DNA from: Chloroflexota bacterium
Lineage (GTDB): Bacteria; Chloroflexota; Dehalococcoidia; Lucifugimonadales; GCA-2719675
Assembly (NCBI GenBank): GCA_002719675.1
Contig: PBID01000016.1
Location: 66,837 to 130,836 of the forward strand
DNA length: 64,000 nt
Direction: 5' to 3'
Part shown: piece by piece, positions 7,570-13,407 of the stretch
Layout: each line of letters begins with the position of its first letter
Numbering within the stretch: the first letter of the stretch is position 1
Program-made: the position numbers and the translations under genes
Notes under the pieces: generated by a model
Seen by the model: only the letters and a program-made list of their open reading frames with translations
Database searches by the model: none
What the model was told of the DNA's origin: nothing

Positions 7570-8913
7570 TTAAATATAAGTAAATTTTACTTCTAGGTTA
7601 TCTTCAACAGATATAGATTTAGCTAGAATTTTAATAATTAAACTTTTTGTTGGAATTGGTTGTTTTTCCCAATTTTCCCAATTTTCTGTAGCTTGTTTAA
7701 TATATTTTGGTGAAGATACTTCATCTAAAGTTTTTTTTGCCACATCTATTTCTTTAATATATTCACCTATAAGAGTTATATTAGTGGCTTTTGTTGCAGA
7801 TTCAGTGATGAATTTGTTTAGTTTAATTTTGGCTTTTTTGATGGAAACATCGCGTGCAATTTTCAAATCATTCATGGATGATTTGTTTATAAGGATTTCT
7901 TTAGATTTGATATGTGATTTCATTTTCTCGAATACTTTTTTTTCTAAGAGATCTTCTTTCACTGTATGATAATCACAAGTTCCTTCATTGTTTCTAGATT
8001 GACATTGATAATATCTATAAACTTGTTGATTTATTTTTGAAGCTTTGTTTTTCCAAGATTGTTTTTTTGTAACTCCCATCATTTTACCTTTACAGTAACC
8101 ACATTCAATTAACCCTGATAAAAGGAAAGGTTTGGATTCAAAGATTCTTCCTATTGGTTTGCGTGATTTAGTTATTTCTTGTGATTTTCGAAATATTTCT
8201 GGAGTAACTATTGCTTCATGCATCTTTGCTTTTCTTATGCCCAGTCTTGTATATGTTCCAATATATGTTACGTTCTTTAGGATGTCTCTAACATTTAGAG
8301 CGCTCCATGGTTTTTCTTTGCGGAATTTAATTTTTCTTTCATTGTTTAAATGATTTGCAATTTTCCTGAATCCCATTTCTGATTGTGTATATAATCTAAA
8401 GATTAATTCAACAACTGTAGCCTCTGATTTAATGATTTCAAGCCTGCTATCAGGTCCAATTTGATAGCCGTAGAGAGTACGTCCTAGAGGTTTCCCCTCT
8501 AATGCTTTTATCATCATAGATTCTTTAATTTTAGAACTTCTACTTTTTGAAATTCCTTCGAATCCGATATTATTTAACGCGTTTTGAAGGATGTTTGGAT
8601 CATTCTCATCCATACAGGCTACTTCGCTTCCGGTTTGCACCAATTCAAATAATTTTCTTGAAAATTCTTCTAGAGTTTTTCCTAAATGTTTAGCAGATGG
8701 AACAAGTATAAGAAATGTTTTCCCGGAATTTTTTATATAATGAATCATATTTGTATATTCATTTTGATTATTTAAAGCAGAATCATTACTTTCATAGAAA
8801 GATTTGATTGGTTGGTGCATGTTGTATTTGCAAAATTCTTCAAATTTTGAAGATGCTTCTTCTATAGAGTTATTATGTTGATTCAAATTTTGAAAATAAC
8901 TTATTGATAGCAT
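7570..8913 (-). CDS. Recombinase family protein (serine-recombinase homologue with degenerate catalytic domain)
   Basis: Recombinase-domain features (GKPLGRTLYGYQI..., RKIANHLNNERK..., W...VRDILKNVTYIGT), zinc ribbon CGYCKGK...CQSRNNEGTC, coiled-coil C-terminus. Confidence 0.85.
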   Translation of the reverse strand: MLSISYFQNLNQHNNSIEEASSKFEEFCKYNMHQPIKSFYESNDSALNNQNEYTNMIHYIKNSGKTFLILVPSAKHLGKTLEEFSRKLFELVQTGSEVACMDENDPNILQNALNNIGFEGISKSRSSKIKESMMIKALEGKPLGRTLYGYQIGPDSRLEIIKSEATVVELIFRLYTQSEMGFRKIANHLNNERKIKFRKEKPWSALNVRDILKNVTYIGTYTRLGIRKAKMHEAIVTPEIFRKSQEITKSRKPIGRIFESKPFLLSGLIECGYCKGKMMGVTKKQSWKNKASKINQQVYRYYQCQSRNNEGTCDYHTVKEDLLEKKVFEKMKSHIKSKEILINKSSMNDLKIARDVSIKKAKIKLNKFITESATKATNITLIGEYIKEIDVAKKTLDEVSSPKYIKQATENWENWEKQPIPTKSLIIKILAKSISVEDNLEVKFTYI

Positions 8914-8920
8914 TCAATTA

Positions 8921-9622
8921 TCAACTTACATAAAGTATTCTGTTGCACATTTTGCATTGAATTAGATCTTTTAATTGTATGATTTTTTGTAGCTCAGCTG
9001 TAGTTAAGGCGATCCTACATCCTTGGCATGTGTTTTTTTCAACTTTTACAATAGCTAATCCGTTTTTTGTTTTTCTCAAAAGTTGGTATTTTGATAAATG
9101 TTTTTTTTGGATTTTTGTTTCAACAGTATCTTTTTTTGTAATTAATTTTGAAATCTCCACTTCAGTTTCAGATTTAATTTTTGAAAATTTTTCTTTCTTG
9201 AGGCTCATTTGAGTTTTGATTTTGTCAATTGTAATAGAATCTTCCTTTAATTTTTTGTTGAATTCATCTTGCAACAACATAATTTTAAGAAGTTTGTTTT
9301 CTTCTACAGTTTTTTCTTGGTTTAAAAACCCCAGAGAATTTTCTATAGCTTCAAGTTCTTTAGGATTTGAGACTGAACCATCATATAGTTGCTTCTCAAT
9401 CGAAGAAGATTTTTGGTTGATGTCAGATAATTTATTTTCTGATTTACGTCTAAATTTTTCTATTTCAGAAAGTTTTGAAGTGGAGTGATTGATTTTATTT
9501 TGAGCAATGTTTAATTTATTCTTATTAGTTAATTCTTCATTAATTTTTTGGATATTATTATTTAACTTGTCTAACTTAGAGTCAATTTTTTGCAAGTCAA
9601 CCATCGACTTAATAGAATCCAT
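8921..9622 (-). CDS. Coiled-coil protein with C-terminal C4 zinc ribbon (COG1579-like)
   Basis: Long coiled coil, then TCQGCRIALTTAELQKI...IQCKMCNRILY. Confidence 0.88.
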   Translation of the reverse strand: MDSIKSMVDLQKIDSKLDKLNNNIQKINEELTNKNKLNIAQNKINHSTSKLSEIEKFRRKSENKLSDINQKSSSIEKQLYDGSVSNPKELEAIENSLGFLNQEKTVEENKLLKIMLLQDEFNKKLKEDSITIDKIKTQMSLKKEKFSKIKSETEVEISKLITKKDTVETKIQKKHLSKYQLLRKTKNGLAIVKVEKNTCQGCRIALTTAELQKIIQLKDLIQCKMCNRILYVS

Positions 9623-9754
9623 TATTTAGCCTTGTAGTTTTTTTTAAGAAAGTATACATTTATACTACATTTTTCTCTACCTAATCGATAGTATAATATG
9701 AAGAAATTTGTATATGATTGTTTTAGAATTTTACAAGTAAGTTTAGGAATTTTA

Positions 9755-11185
9755 ATGGAATTAATCAAATTACCAAAAACCAAGATGATATGTACTCTCG
9801 GTCCTTCGACTAATTCAGAAGATGTCATAATTCAATTAATTACAGCAGGAATGAGTATTGCTAGATTGAATTTTTCACATGGCGATTTACAAGAACATAG
9901 AAAATCTTTTCAAATAGTTAGAGATGCTGCTAAAAAATTAAATACTAGGGTAGGAATTTTAGTAGATGTTCCTGGACCTAAATATAGAACTGGGAAATTA
10001 AACGACCCATTTATAATGCTTGAAGAGGAACAAGAATTAATTCTTACAAGTAAGAGTAGTGAGCTAGCTGATAAAAATAAAATTTCAATTTTACCTTCAG
10101 GAATCCATAATGACGTTAGCCCTGGTTCTGTTATTTTACTTAACGATGGATTGATGGAATTGTCTGTCGAAAAAGTTGAAGGTCTTGAAGTTTTTTGCAA
10201 AGTGATTGTGGGAGGGAAACTTACTGAAAAAAGGGGTGTTGCTACTCCAGGAAAAAGTCCTTCTTTACCTTTTCCCGATCAAAATGCTGTTGATGCTTTA
10301 GAATTTGCGGCTGAATATGGTGCTGACTTTGTTGCTCTTTCTACAGTAACAAATGAATCACATGTTTTGTCTGCTAAAAAAATACTTCAAGAATTTAATC
10401 ATTCTCCAGTGATTATTTCAAAAATTGAACGTTCAGAAGCTTTAGAAAATTTCGATCAGATTTTGTCAGTTAGTGATGCTATTATGGTAGCTCGAGGAGA
10501 TATGGGTGTTGAAGTTAAGATGTCAAAATTACCAACTATTCAGAAGGAATTAATTTTTAAATGTAATAATGTTGGAAAGCCTGTAATTACTGCTACTCAG
10601 ATGTTAGAGTCTATGATAAATTCTCCTATACCAACTAGAGCTGAGGTTACTGATGTAGCGAATGCAATATATGATGGCACAGACGCTATTATGCTTTCGG
10701 GAGAAACTTCTATCGGATCTTTTCCTCTGGATGCTGTAAAAGTTATGTCTGAAATTGCTCAGGAAGCAGAATCTAGTTTATCTTATGAAAAGATTTTAAT
10801 TGATAAAAGAAATTATTTGGAACCTGATACAAGTGATGCTATAGCGTATTCTTCAGTTCAAACATCGAATCAATTAGATGCTGATTTTCTAGTTGCTTTT
10901 ACCGAATCTGGTAGCACAGCAGTTAGGGTTTCAAAATATAGGCCGCGAGCACCAATTTTAGCTCTTACCTCAACTGAAAATACATCAAATCAATTGACAC
11001 TTAGCTGGGGTGTATTTCCATTTACTATTTCAAAATTAGATAATGTAGATGATTTTTTTCATTTAGCTGAATCTTATTCAAAGCAATTAAAAAAAATGGA
11101 TCAAGGGAACGTTATAGTTCTAGTTGCCGGATTACCCATTGGTGTTTCAGGTGGTACAAATTTGTTAAGAGTAATCACTTTGTAA
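9755..11185 (+). CDS. pyk: Pyruvate kinase (track start 9698 is 19 codons upstream)
   Basis: KTKMICTLGPSTNS, ARLNFSHG, VARGDMGVE, ATQMLESMINSPIPTRAEVTDVANAIYDGTDAIMLSGETS. Confidence 0.96.
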   Translation: MELIKLPKTKMICTLGPSTNSEDVIIQLITAGMSIARLNFSHGDLQEHRKSFQIVRDAAKKLNTRVGILVDVPGPKYRTGKLNDPFIMLEEEQELILTSKSSELADKNKISILPSGIHNDVSPGSVILLNDGLMELSVEKVEGLEVFCKVIVGGKLTEKRGVATPGKSPSLPFPDQNAVDALEFAAEYGADFVALSTVTNESHVLSAKKILQEFNHSPVIISKIERSEALENFDQILSVSDAIMVARGDMGVEVKMSKLPTIQKELIFKCNNVGKPVITATQMLESMINSPIPTRAEVTDVANAIYDGTDAIMLSGETSIGSFPLDAVKVMSEIAQEAESSLSYEKILIDKRNYLEPDTSDAIAYSSVQTSNQLDADFLVAFTESGSTAVRVSKYRPRAPILALTSTENTSNQLTLSWGVFPFTISKLDNVDDFFHLAESYSKQLKKMDQGNVIVLVAGLPIGVSGGTNLLRVITL

Positions 11186-11214: not shown

Positions 11215-13407
11215 TTGTTGAAAATTAAAGACTCTATGACAGGTGATTTAAAATCGGTAATCTCTGATAATCAAACTCAGGTAAAAATTTATACTTGCGG
11301 CCCTACTGTGTATCGAAGTGCACATTTAGGTAATATGCGTACTTATTTAATGGCAGATTGGATTCGTCGTGTAATTTCTTTAGACTCTAATATAAAAATA
11401 TTTCATGTTAAAAACATTACAGATGTTGGTCATATGCGTCAAGAGAGATTAGAACTGGGGGAAGATAGAATTATTTCTGCTGCTATTAATGAAAATAAAA
11501 CTGCTAGTGAGATTGCAGATTTTTATACTTCTGAGTTTTTTAGAGATGAAAAAAAACTTAATATAATTCCTGCAGAATTTTTTCCTAAAGCTACTGAAAA
11601 TATTAACGAGATGATTGAAATAATCGAAAAGTTATTGGTAGATGGATTCGCGTATAAAGTACTTGGAAATATTTATTACAATGTAGATAAATGGAAAGAC
11701 TATGGAATTTTGTCTGGTAATAATGGTAGTGATTTACTTGAAGCTGTCAGAATTAAAAAAGATTTGAATAAATTAGATCCTAGGGATTTTACGTTATGGA
11801 AGAAAGCAGAGAAGGGTAGGACTTTAAAATGGAAAAGTCCATGGGGCGAAGGATTTCCTGGGTGGCATATAGAATGTTCAGCAATGTCGATTAAATACTT
11901 AGGTAAATCTATAGATATTCACACAGGTGGTGTTGATAATTTATTTCCCCATCACGAGGATGAAATTGCTCAATCAGATGCATTCAATGGAGTTAAAACA
12001 GTAAAAACTTGGGTTCATGGACAGCATCTTTTGTGGGATGGTGTAAAAATGTCAAAATCTGAGATGAATGATCTAACAGTTTCTGATTTAGAAAATAAAG
12101 GGTTTGATCCAATTGCATTTAGATACTTATGTTTGACTTCTAGGTATTATAATCGGCTACATTTTTCTATTTCTTCTATTAAGTCAGCACAAAATGCTTT
12201 GAAAAAAATCCGACAAAAGGTTTGGATTTGGTCAGAAAATTTGGTTAATAAAAGTTCTGCAGATCAAATTTTGATCAAAAATTACAAATTAAAATTTCAT
12301 CAGTTTGTTTCAGATAATCTGAACTTACCTCTTGCAGTATCTCATATGTGGGCAGTAGTCCATTCTGATTTGTCAGATTCTAATAAATTTGAATTGTTAT
12401 TATATTTTGATAAAGTTTTTGGTTTAGGTTTAGATTCAATATCAAAAAATAAAATTGATCAAGAGATTAATTCAAAAATGTCTTTGCGATCTGATCTTCG
12501 TTTAAATCAGAATTATTCAAGCACAGACAAAATCCGCTCGGATATTGCTGGAAAAGGTTATTTAATAGAAGATACTTCAAAAAAATCTAGAATAAGACCT
12601 TTGATGAATTGGGAGAGTCCTGAAAAAAAGTTTTTGGATTGTTTAAAGTCTCCGAAAGATTTTGCTTTTTTACCTTTGAATGAATCGGAATTTGAAATTA
12701 CAGTAGGATTGATTGCTAGGAATGATCTAGCTGATATTACACGTTTCGTCTCTGGATTTTTAAATACGCTTAAGTTCAAAAATTCTGAATTGTTGATTGT
12801 AAATAACTCAACAAATGTTTATGTACACTCCTATCTAGCAAATTTAAATAAAGATTATCAAAATGTCCGAGTAATTCATTTGGATCATAATTATGGAGAA
12901 GCTACAGCAAAAAACATAATTTTGAAACAAAGTAGAGGCGAGATTCTTATATTGATGGATGTTAGTACAGAAGTTATTGGAGATATTTTTACTCCAATTA
13001 AAAATATATTGTCAGATGAAAAAATTGGTGTTTGTGGGATAGATGGATTAACTTCAGATGATTTTAGGCATTTTCATGAAGATAATAACAAGGGTCTTTT
13101 TGTTGATGCTATGCAGGCATACTGTTTTGCTTTCAGAAGAAACATTTTGTTGGATGTGGGCTTAATGCGTGAAAATTTTAGATTCTATAGGAATTTGGAT
13201 TTGGATTTTAGTTTACAGATAAAGAACTTGGGATATAAAATATTTTCTTTTGATATGCTTCCTTTGAACAAACATGAGCATTGGGTTTTTCAAGAATATT
13301 CTTCTGAAAGGGTCGATGAATTGAGCAAGAAGAACTACAAACGCTTCTTGAAAAAGTGGGATGGAAGAAATGACTTACTCGTAAAAAACCAAAAAAATCA
13401 GATTTGA
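11215..13407 (+). CDS. cysS: Cysteinyl-tRNA synthetase with fused C-terminal GT2-like glycosyltransferase domain
   Basis: CGPTVYRSAHLGNMRTY, HIECSAMS, PHHEDEIAQSDA, KMSKS; CysRS C-terminus IRSDIAGKGYLIEDT; then GLIARNDLADITRF...GEATAKNIILKQSRGEILILMD. Confidence 0.95.
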   Translation: MLKIKDSMTGDLKSVISDNQTQVKIYTCGPTVYRSAHLGNMRTYLMADWIRRVISLDSNIKIFHVKNITDVGHMRQERLELGEDRIISAAINENKTASEIADFYTSEFFRDEKKLNIIPAEFFPKATENINEMIEIIEKLLVDGFAYKVLGNIYYNVDKWKDYGILSGNNGSDLLEAVRIKKDLNKLDPRDFTLWKKAEKGRTLKWKSPWGEGFPGWHIECSAMSIKYLGKSIDIHTGGVDNLFPHHEDEIAQSDAFNGVKTVKTWVHGQHLLWDGVKMSKSEMNDLTVSDLENKGFDPIAFRYLCLTSRYYNRLHFSISSIKSAQNALKKIRQKVWIWSENLVNKSSADQILIKNYKLKFHQFVSDNLNLPLAVSHMWAVVHSDLSDSNKFELLLYFDKVFGLGLDSISKNKIDQEINSKMSLRSDLRLNQNYSSTDKIRSDIAGKGYLIEDTSKKSRIRPLMNWESPEKKFLDCLKSPKDFAFLPLNESEFEITVGLIARNDLADITRFVSGFLNTLKFKNSELLIVNNSTNVYVHSYLANLNKDYQNVRVIHLDHNYGEATAKNIILKQSRGEILILMDVSTEVIGDIFTPIKNILSDEKIGVCGIDGLTSDDFRHFHEDNNKGLFVDAMQAYCFAFRRNILLDVGLMRENFRFYRNLDLDFSLQIKNLGYKIFSFDMLPLNKHEHWVFQEYSSERVDELSKKNYKRFLKKWDGRNDLLVKNQKNQI

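Follow-up and report, generated by a model that had tools for sequence, protein, structure and literature searches.

A single intact reading frame in the window (the whole 64,000-nucleotide stretch of DNA analysed here, from a 1.40-Mb draft genome congeneric with SAR202 OSU_TB36) joins a complete cysteinyl-tRNA synthetase (CysRS) to a family-2 glycosyltransferase (GT), and this fusion is conserved through the order, the class and the phylum (Chloroflexota). Because the CysRS anticodon-binding domain also heads all CysRS-less members of the GT family, and its G34-contact positions are invariant there, the conserved unit, judged by sequence comparison, is the anticodon-binding domain plus the GT, with or without the charging domain. 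The best explanation we can offer, held tentatively, is that the fused protein is an accessory and probably active CysRS whose anticodon-binding domain doubles as a docking module for a GT-A glycosyltransferase, the most likely activity of which would be sugar transfer to tRNA; our confidence in this explanation is limited, in part because an atypical DxS motif leaves a non-catalytic role open. The gene and its parts are as follows.

11215..13407 (+): whole fused gene, CysRS with anticodon-binding domain, linker and GT2 (Pfam, TIGR00435, homologues)
11215..12192 (+): CysRS class-I catalytic domain, residues 1-326 (Pfam tRNA-synt_1e, motifs in 44 homologues)
12193..12444 (+): CysRS helical-bundle (DALR) region, residues ~327-410 (TIGR00435 alignment, predicted model against 1u0b)
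12448..12600 (+): CysRS anticodon-binding domain, ~50 residues (residue correspondence to E. coli CysRS)
12601..12684 (+): linker, residues ~463-490, ~28 residues (dN/dS 0.51)
12685..13404 (+): family-2 glycosyltransferase of predicted GT-A fold, residues 491-730 (Pfam, fold, motif alignment)

The frame comprises 730 codons plus the stop (730 aa) with no internal stops, and it opens with a TTG codon immediately 3′ of an in-frame TAG, with GAGGTG ~6 bases ahead. A preliminary description of this DNA had proposed a CysRS fused to a GT2-like domain at residues ~490-730, and both halves were borne out within the one frame: Pfam tRNA-synt_1e matched residues 19-326 (E=3.1e-89) and NCBIfam cysS (TIGR00435) residues 2-459 (388 bits; cut-off 340), while Glycos_transf_2 matched residues 497-622 (E=3.1e-10) and the tail has a predicted GT-A fold. 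Both Pfam matches lie above their curated cut-offs.

Full-length homologues (about residues 20-724, 43-78% identity) occur in 44 of 98 SAR202-type relatives, the window's own genome counted, so that the same tail is found on CysRS homologues of related genomes; several are on single-contig chromosomes, and in two further SAR202-type genomes the fusion gene is interrupted by contig ends. Among the SAR202 members, Glycos_transf_2 was matched independently in 43 of 44 and tRNA-synt_1e in all 44. At the level of the class, a GT-tail profile, whose scores leave a broad gap between the family and ordinary GT2s, detected 32 genomes at E<1e-70, with the next matches above 1e-20, one split fragment aside (E-values of these local searches relate to small sets); 29 of these 32 strong matches lie in frames of 715-850 aa and are fused, and the remaining three in shorter frames, at least one of them at a contig end. 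The GT subfamily was present in 106 of 400 genomes sampled across the phylum, where it takes two forms, fused to CysRS or as a stand-alone protein of ~300-340 aa, with some genomes harboring both. With dozens of orthologues fused in frame in the same way, a frameshift, an assembly error or a lost stop is ruled out as the origin of the fusion; the earlier suggestion of a lost intergenic stop, taken as a one-off artefact, is thereby refuted. Compared with the congener orthologue, dN/dS was low in both the CysRS (0.11) and the GT (0.13) and rose to 0.51 in the linker; both enzyme halves are thus under purifying selection and the linker is free to change. As to occurrence outside the phylum, a single pattern scan of genome contigs matched only a congener, SAR202 OSU_TB36, and a plasmid search returned ordinary CysRS and one weak GT2; in the open-access literature we found no description of a CysRS-GT fusion.

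Focusing on the CysRS half, we noted that the motifs HxGN (37-40) and KMSKS (278-282), together with C28, C221, H246 and E250 at the four Zn-ligand positions of CysRS, are present in the window protein and invariant or nearly so across 44 homologues. The predicted model of residues 1-463 aligned end to end with tRNA-bound E. coli CysRS (1u0b; Z 44.6 over 440 residues, rmsd 3.2), reaching residue 461 and including the anticodon-binding domain, and the anticodon-contact residues are kept along with the motifs. With these features, it is plausible that the fused CysRS charges tRNA-Cys with cysteine. Unlike ordinary bacterial CysRS (cysS), it carries a GT domain and is an accessory, second CysRS, a status that the preliminary description overlooked, as it did the DxS motif and the existence of CysRS-less relatives. 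A standard CysRS is encoded elsewhere in the window genome, on a separate contig (G000:C5), and another CysRS accompanies the fused one in 41 of 42 further fused genomes checked, the exception being G449 (88% complete), where the fused CysRS alone was detected; the extra CysRS rules out a role as sole or housekeeping enzyme in the window genome and in those 41 of 42. In the CysRS tree, the fused enzymes and their unfused relatives form a group apart from the SAR202 housekeeping CysRS, including that of the window's own genome (support 99), and the unfused members are the CysRS of some other lineages (L163, L164, L173). Borrelia CysRS, whose branch is very long, also falls within the fused group, with a placement that is unsure.

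Modelled alone (pLDDT 90.7), the GT tail is predicted to have a GT-A fold with a largely retained GT active site. The model matches GalNAc-T2 with Z ~20 over 234 residues and K4CP, SpsA and RmlT with Z 18-19, and the family shares with these enzymes the position of the first Asp and perhaps those of the base Asp and the C-terminal His: D582 is kept in 106, E586 in 105 and D662 in 110 of 113 aligned members, and the C-terminal His (H689) in 56 of 57 fused and 31 of 56 stand-alone proteins. An ungapped profile alignment to chondroitin synthase puts D662 where the xED motif has its catalytic base, although the 6p61 alignment permits another register. What sets the family apart from the four enzymes is its N-terminal anticodon domain, a C-terminal motif of its own, N-(F/Y)-x-R-F-L-x-K-W, and the DxD position itself, where the window protein has D582-x-S584-x-E586. 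For the DxD conservation that the preliminary description had singled out for inspection, the outcome was divided, with the first Asp mostly kept and the second missing in 113 of 113 members, which have DxS/G/A/N. Since DxD is not universal in GT-A enzymes, its absence lowers the claim of catalysis and not that of fold membership; some members may be inactive, because the second Asp is absent throughout and H689 is retained by only part of the CysRS-less proteins.

A rival reading is that the GT is not a catalyst and instead binds a nucleotide-sugar or RNA, regulating or stabilising the accessory CysRS or tRNA-Cys, a view to which the loss of DxD from every member, the disappearance of the C-terminal His from many CysRS-less proteins and the occurrence of DTNVE/DPGVE-like variants lend weight. 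We nevertheless regard it as unlikely, as D582, E586, D662, H689 and the G-loop region are nearly invariant among fused members, purifying selection acts on the GT half, and GalNAc-T2, the top fold match, uses DxH, so that an altered motif alone does not equal inactivity.

The CysRS-less proteins provide the strongest pointer to a role for tRNA in the family's activity. Each of the 56 stand-alone rows, which represent 55 genes because L116 and L210 are the same, opens with a CysRS anticodon-binding domain of ~50 residues. A profile built from the anticodon domains of unfused CysRS alone matched 56 of 56 (worst E 1.1e-7 in this 56-sequence set), and among 5,051 background ORFs it matched CysRSs and this GT family and nothing else; Pfam CysS_C matched the stand-alone domain weakly, at an E of about 0.007-0.009, below its cut-off. 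Residues R425, R429, Y434, D438 and D453 of the window protein correspond to R423, R427, W432, D436 and D451 of E. coli CysRS, the last of which presumably also has an anticodon role. With pairwise identity in the domain averaging 42% and falling to 20%, the equivalents of R423, R427, D436 and D451 and an aromatic residue at 432 are nonetheless found in every stand-alone row (56 of 56). The fused proteins have them in 74, 75, 77, 77 and 75 of 77 cases, respectively. The account of 1u0b in PMC12684709 that cites Hauenstein 2004 has R427, D436 and W432 contacting G34 of tRNA-Cys, and R423 doing so via water. Mean column entropy was 0.315 for the anticodon-contact positions versus 1.844 for the others (p=1e-4 by column permutation, which ignores phylogeny), whereas positions that are conserved in CysRS but not listed among the anticodon contacts drift in the stand-alone proteins (R439 to K in 19 of 56, W458 to L in 50 of 56), a contrast made by these two relaxed positions only. 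Genomes with CysRS-less forms also encode unfused CysRS with intact anticodon domains, and the GT therefore keeps a second copy of its own. The contact residues, being conserved in all CysRSs, may be partly structural.

An accessory CysRS might also have gained a cell-envelope-type GT with no substrate shared between them, the anticodon domain then serving as a structural N-cap. The domain accompanies the GT in every CysRS-less row, as a cap would, and the neighbouring genes are housekeeping genes; a cap, however, would not require the G34-contact positions to stay invariant when R439 and W458 are free to drift, and the fast-evolving interdomain linker does not suggest a tight interface, which together make this account improbable.

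For the docking model that we prefer, the anticodon-binding domain would grip the GCA anticodon of tRNA-Cys, or possibly another G34 tRNA, and tRNA geometry suggests that the GT, on its ~28-residue linker, would be held near the anticodon arm and not the distant acceptor end. The simplest acceptor would then be the tRNA itself, to which the GT would most likely transfer the sugar of a nucleotide-sugar donor. A fused protein could charge the tRNA with cysteine as well, and in the CysRS-less form docking and sugar transfer alone would remain; given that a stand-alone form exists, charging would not be needed for the proposed activity. We infer tRNA binding, GT catalysis, the sugar donor and the acceptor or product. 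Between the roles first suggested for the fusion, a tRNA-linked one is the better-supported half, with the anticodon domain staying on the GT where the aminoacylation domain is gone. It is possible, if rather doubtful, that tRNA-Cys-docked GTs throughout the phylum make a hitherto unknown glycosylated tRNA-Cys nucleoside (or a sugar-modified Cys-tRNA), and that some of them are bifunctional in that they both charge a tRNA and glycosylate it.

The other suggested role, in thiol metabolism, would have the CysRS part ligate cysteine to a GT-made sugar acceptor in the manner of MshC, a CysRS paralogue that joins cysteine to an amino sugar in mycothiol synthesis (PMC9437257), and short MshC-like CysRSs are present in the phylum, but this is very unlikely, given that the fused CysRS reaches 202 bits with TIGR03447, the model for MshC (cut-off 485), versus 388 with cysS, lies outside the clade of short MshC-like proteins (a Chloroflexota group separated with support 98, whose members in the tree likewise fall short of the curated MshC cut-off), retains the complete anticodon-binding domain that MshC lacks, and has CysRS-less relatives that cannot activate cysteine. 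The two proteins do share descent as CysRS paralogues and the same catalytic fold (Z ~41 for the predicted model).

Enzymatic domains appended to aminoacyl-tRNA synthetases (aaRSs) usually exploit the aminoacylated product. Here, evolution preserves the anticodon-reading domain with the GT, and the charging domain is optional. LysX (LysRS with an MprF domain) and other aaRSs carrying an additional enzyme (PMC9437257) are likewise aaRS-derived polypeptides joined to an enzyme possibly using their product, but they differ in amino acid, appended fold and chemistry, and the unit here is anticodon domain plus GT and not catalytic domain plus transferase. Another aaRS-derived enzyme, Glu-Q-RS (YadB), adds glutamate to the queuosine of the tRNA-Asp anticodon (PMC9437257) and so modifies an anticodon-loop nucleoside, as we propose for the present family, yet it keeps the catalytic half without an anticodon domain, the reverse of the CysRS-less GT form. 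Galactosyl- and mannosyl-queuosine carry a sugar on an anticodon nucleoside of tRNA-Tyr and tRNA-Asp in animals (PMC12518689); they are animal and queuosine-based, tRNA-Cys is not a queuosine tRNA, and the likeness to our case is drawn on chemistry alone. With the sugar-queuosines and Glu-Q-RS known, the proposed chemistry has precedents. If the family acts on tRNA, it would represent a bacterial anticodon-targeted glycosyltransferase, performing a class of modification described for animal queuosine tRNAs, and the anticodon piece retained on the GT suggests that a tRNA may bear a sugar modification not described before.

Two genes upstream of the fusion recur in its neighbourhood.

9698..11185 (+): pyruvate kinase gene, identity read from the sequence; its stop lies 29 bp upstream of the fused-gene start
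8921..9622 (-): gene for a CT398-like coiled-coil / C4 zinc-ribbon protein, with linkage in 28 loci

A pyruvate kinase family member lies upstream of the fusion in 17 SAR202-type loci, and three of the 28 loci linked to the CT398-like gene are those of stand-alone anticodon-domain GTs. Other conserved neighbours are a CaCA-type exchanger, polyprenyl synthase, MetRS, ManC, ETF and rhomboid; across the SAR202-type and stand-alone loci, the conserved neighbours were housekeeping genes, with no pathway link or informative operon partner. In the window genome, one tRNA-Cys (GCA) was found among 28 tRNA genes, which sets aside a duplicate or odd tRNA-Cys, and members of the order that carry the fusion did not differ in tRNA-Cys sequence from those that lack it, which counts against the docking model. 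Also in the window, a serine-recombinase-like protein (7570-8913, -) with strong Recombinase and Zn_ribbon_recom matches and a Resolvase catalytic domain below cut-off is found at the corresponding position in 23 SAR202-type loci, and its gene looks vertically inherited rather than mobile.

Several individual loci showed further variation. The stand-alone GTs formed three groups in the first tree, which suggested three independent losses of the CysRS part, but a single clade was not rejected (AU p=0.73), so that the anticodon domain may have been retained in one lineage rather than repeatedly. In G606 (L125, 9237-11090, -), ~300 residues (GPLTLIGSGETSE...) with no Pfam match precede the anticodon domain and GT in frame; this extension is, by its reading frame, another fusion partner. 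A fused-type CysRS (7923-9476, +) and a stand-alone anticodon-domain GT (9499-10473, -) are convergent neighbours in L124. Short MshC-like CysRS paralogues of 397-421 aa in Chloroflexota (L154-L162, and L118 at 1303-2559, +) scored 359-377 bits against the cut-off of 485 in the four tested, and possibly have an undescribed thiol or ligase function. In G589 and G653 (L128, L130) the CysRS and the GT are encoded by separate frames that overlap, owing to a frameshift or a sequencing error. Finally, L133 (9303-10934, -) is a decayed CysRS-GT paralogue that counts against the docking model, with its catalytic core deleted, its GT motifs degraded and a Lys/Gln-rich stretch in place of the anticodon domain, in a genome that also contains an intact fused copy.
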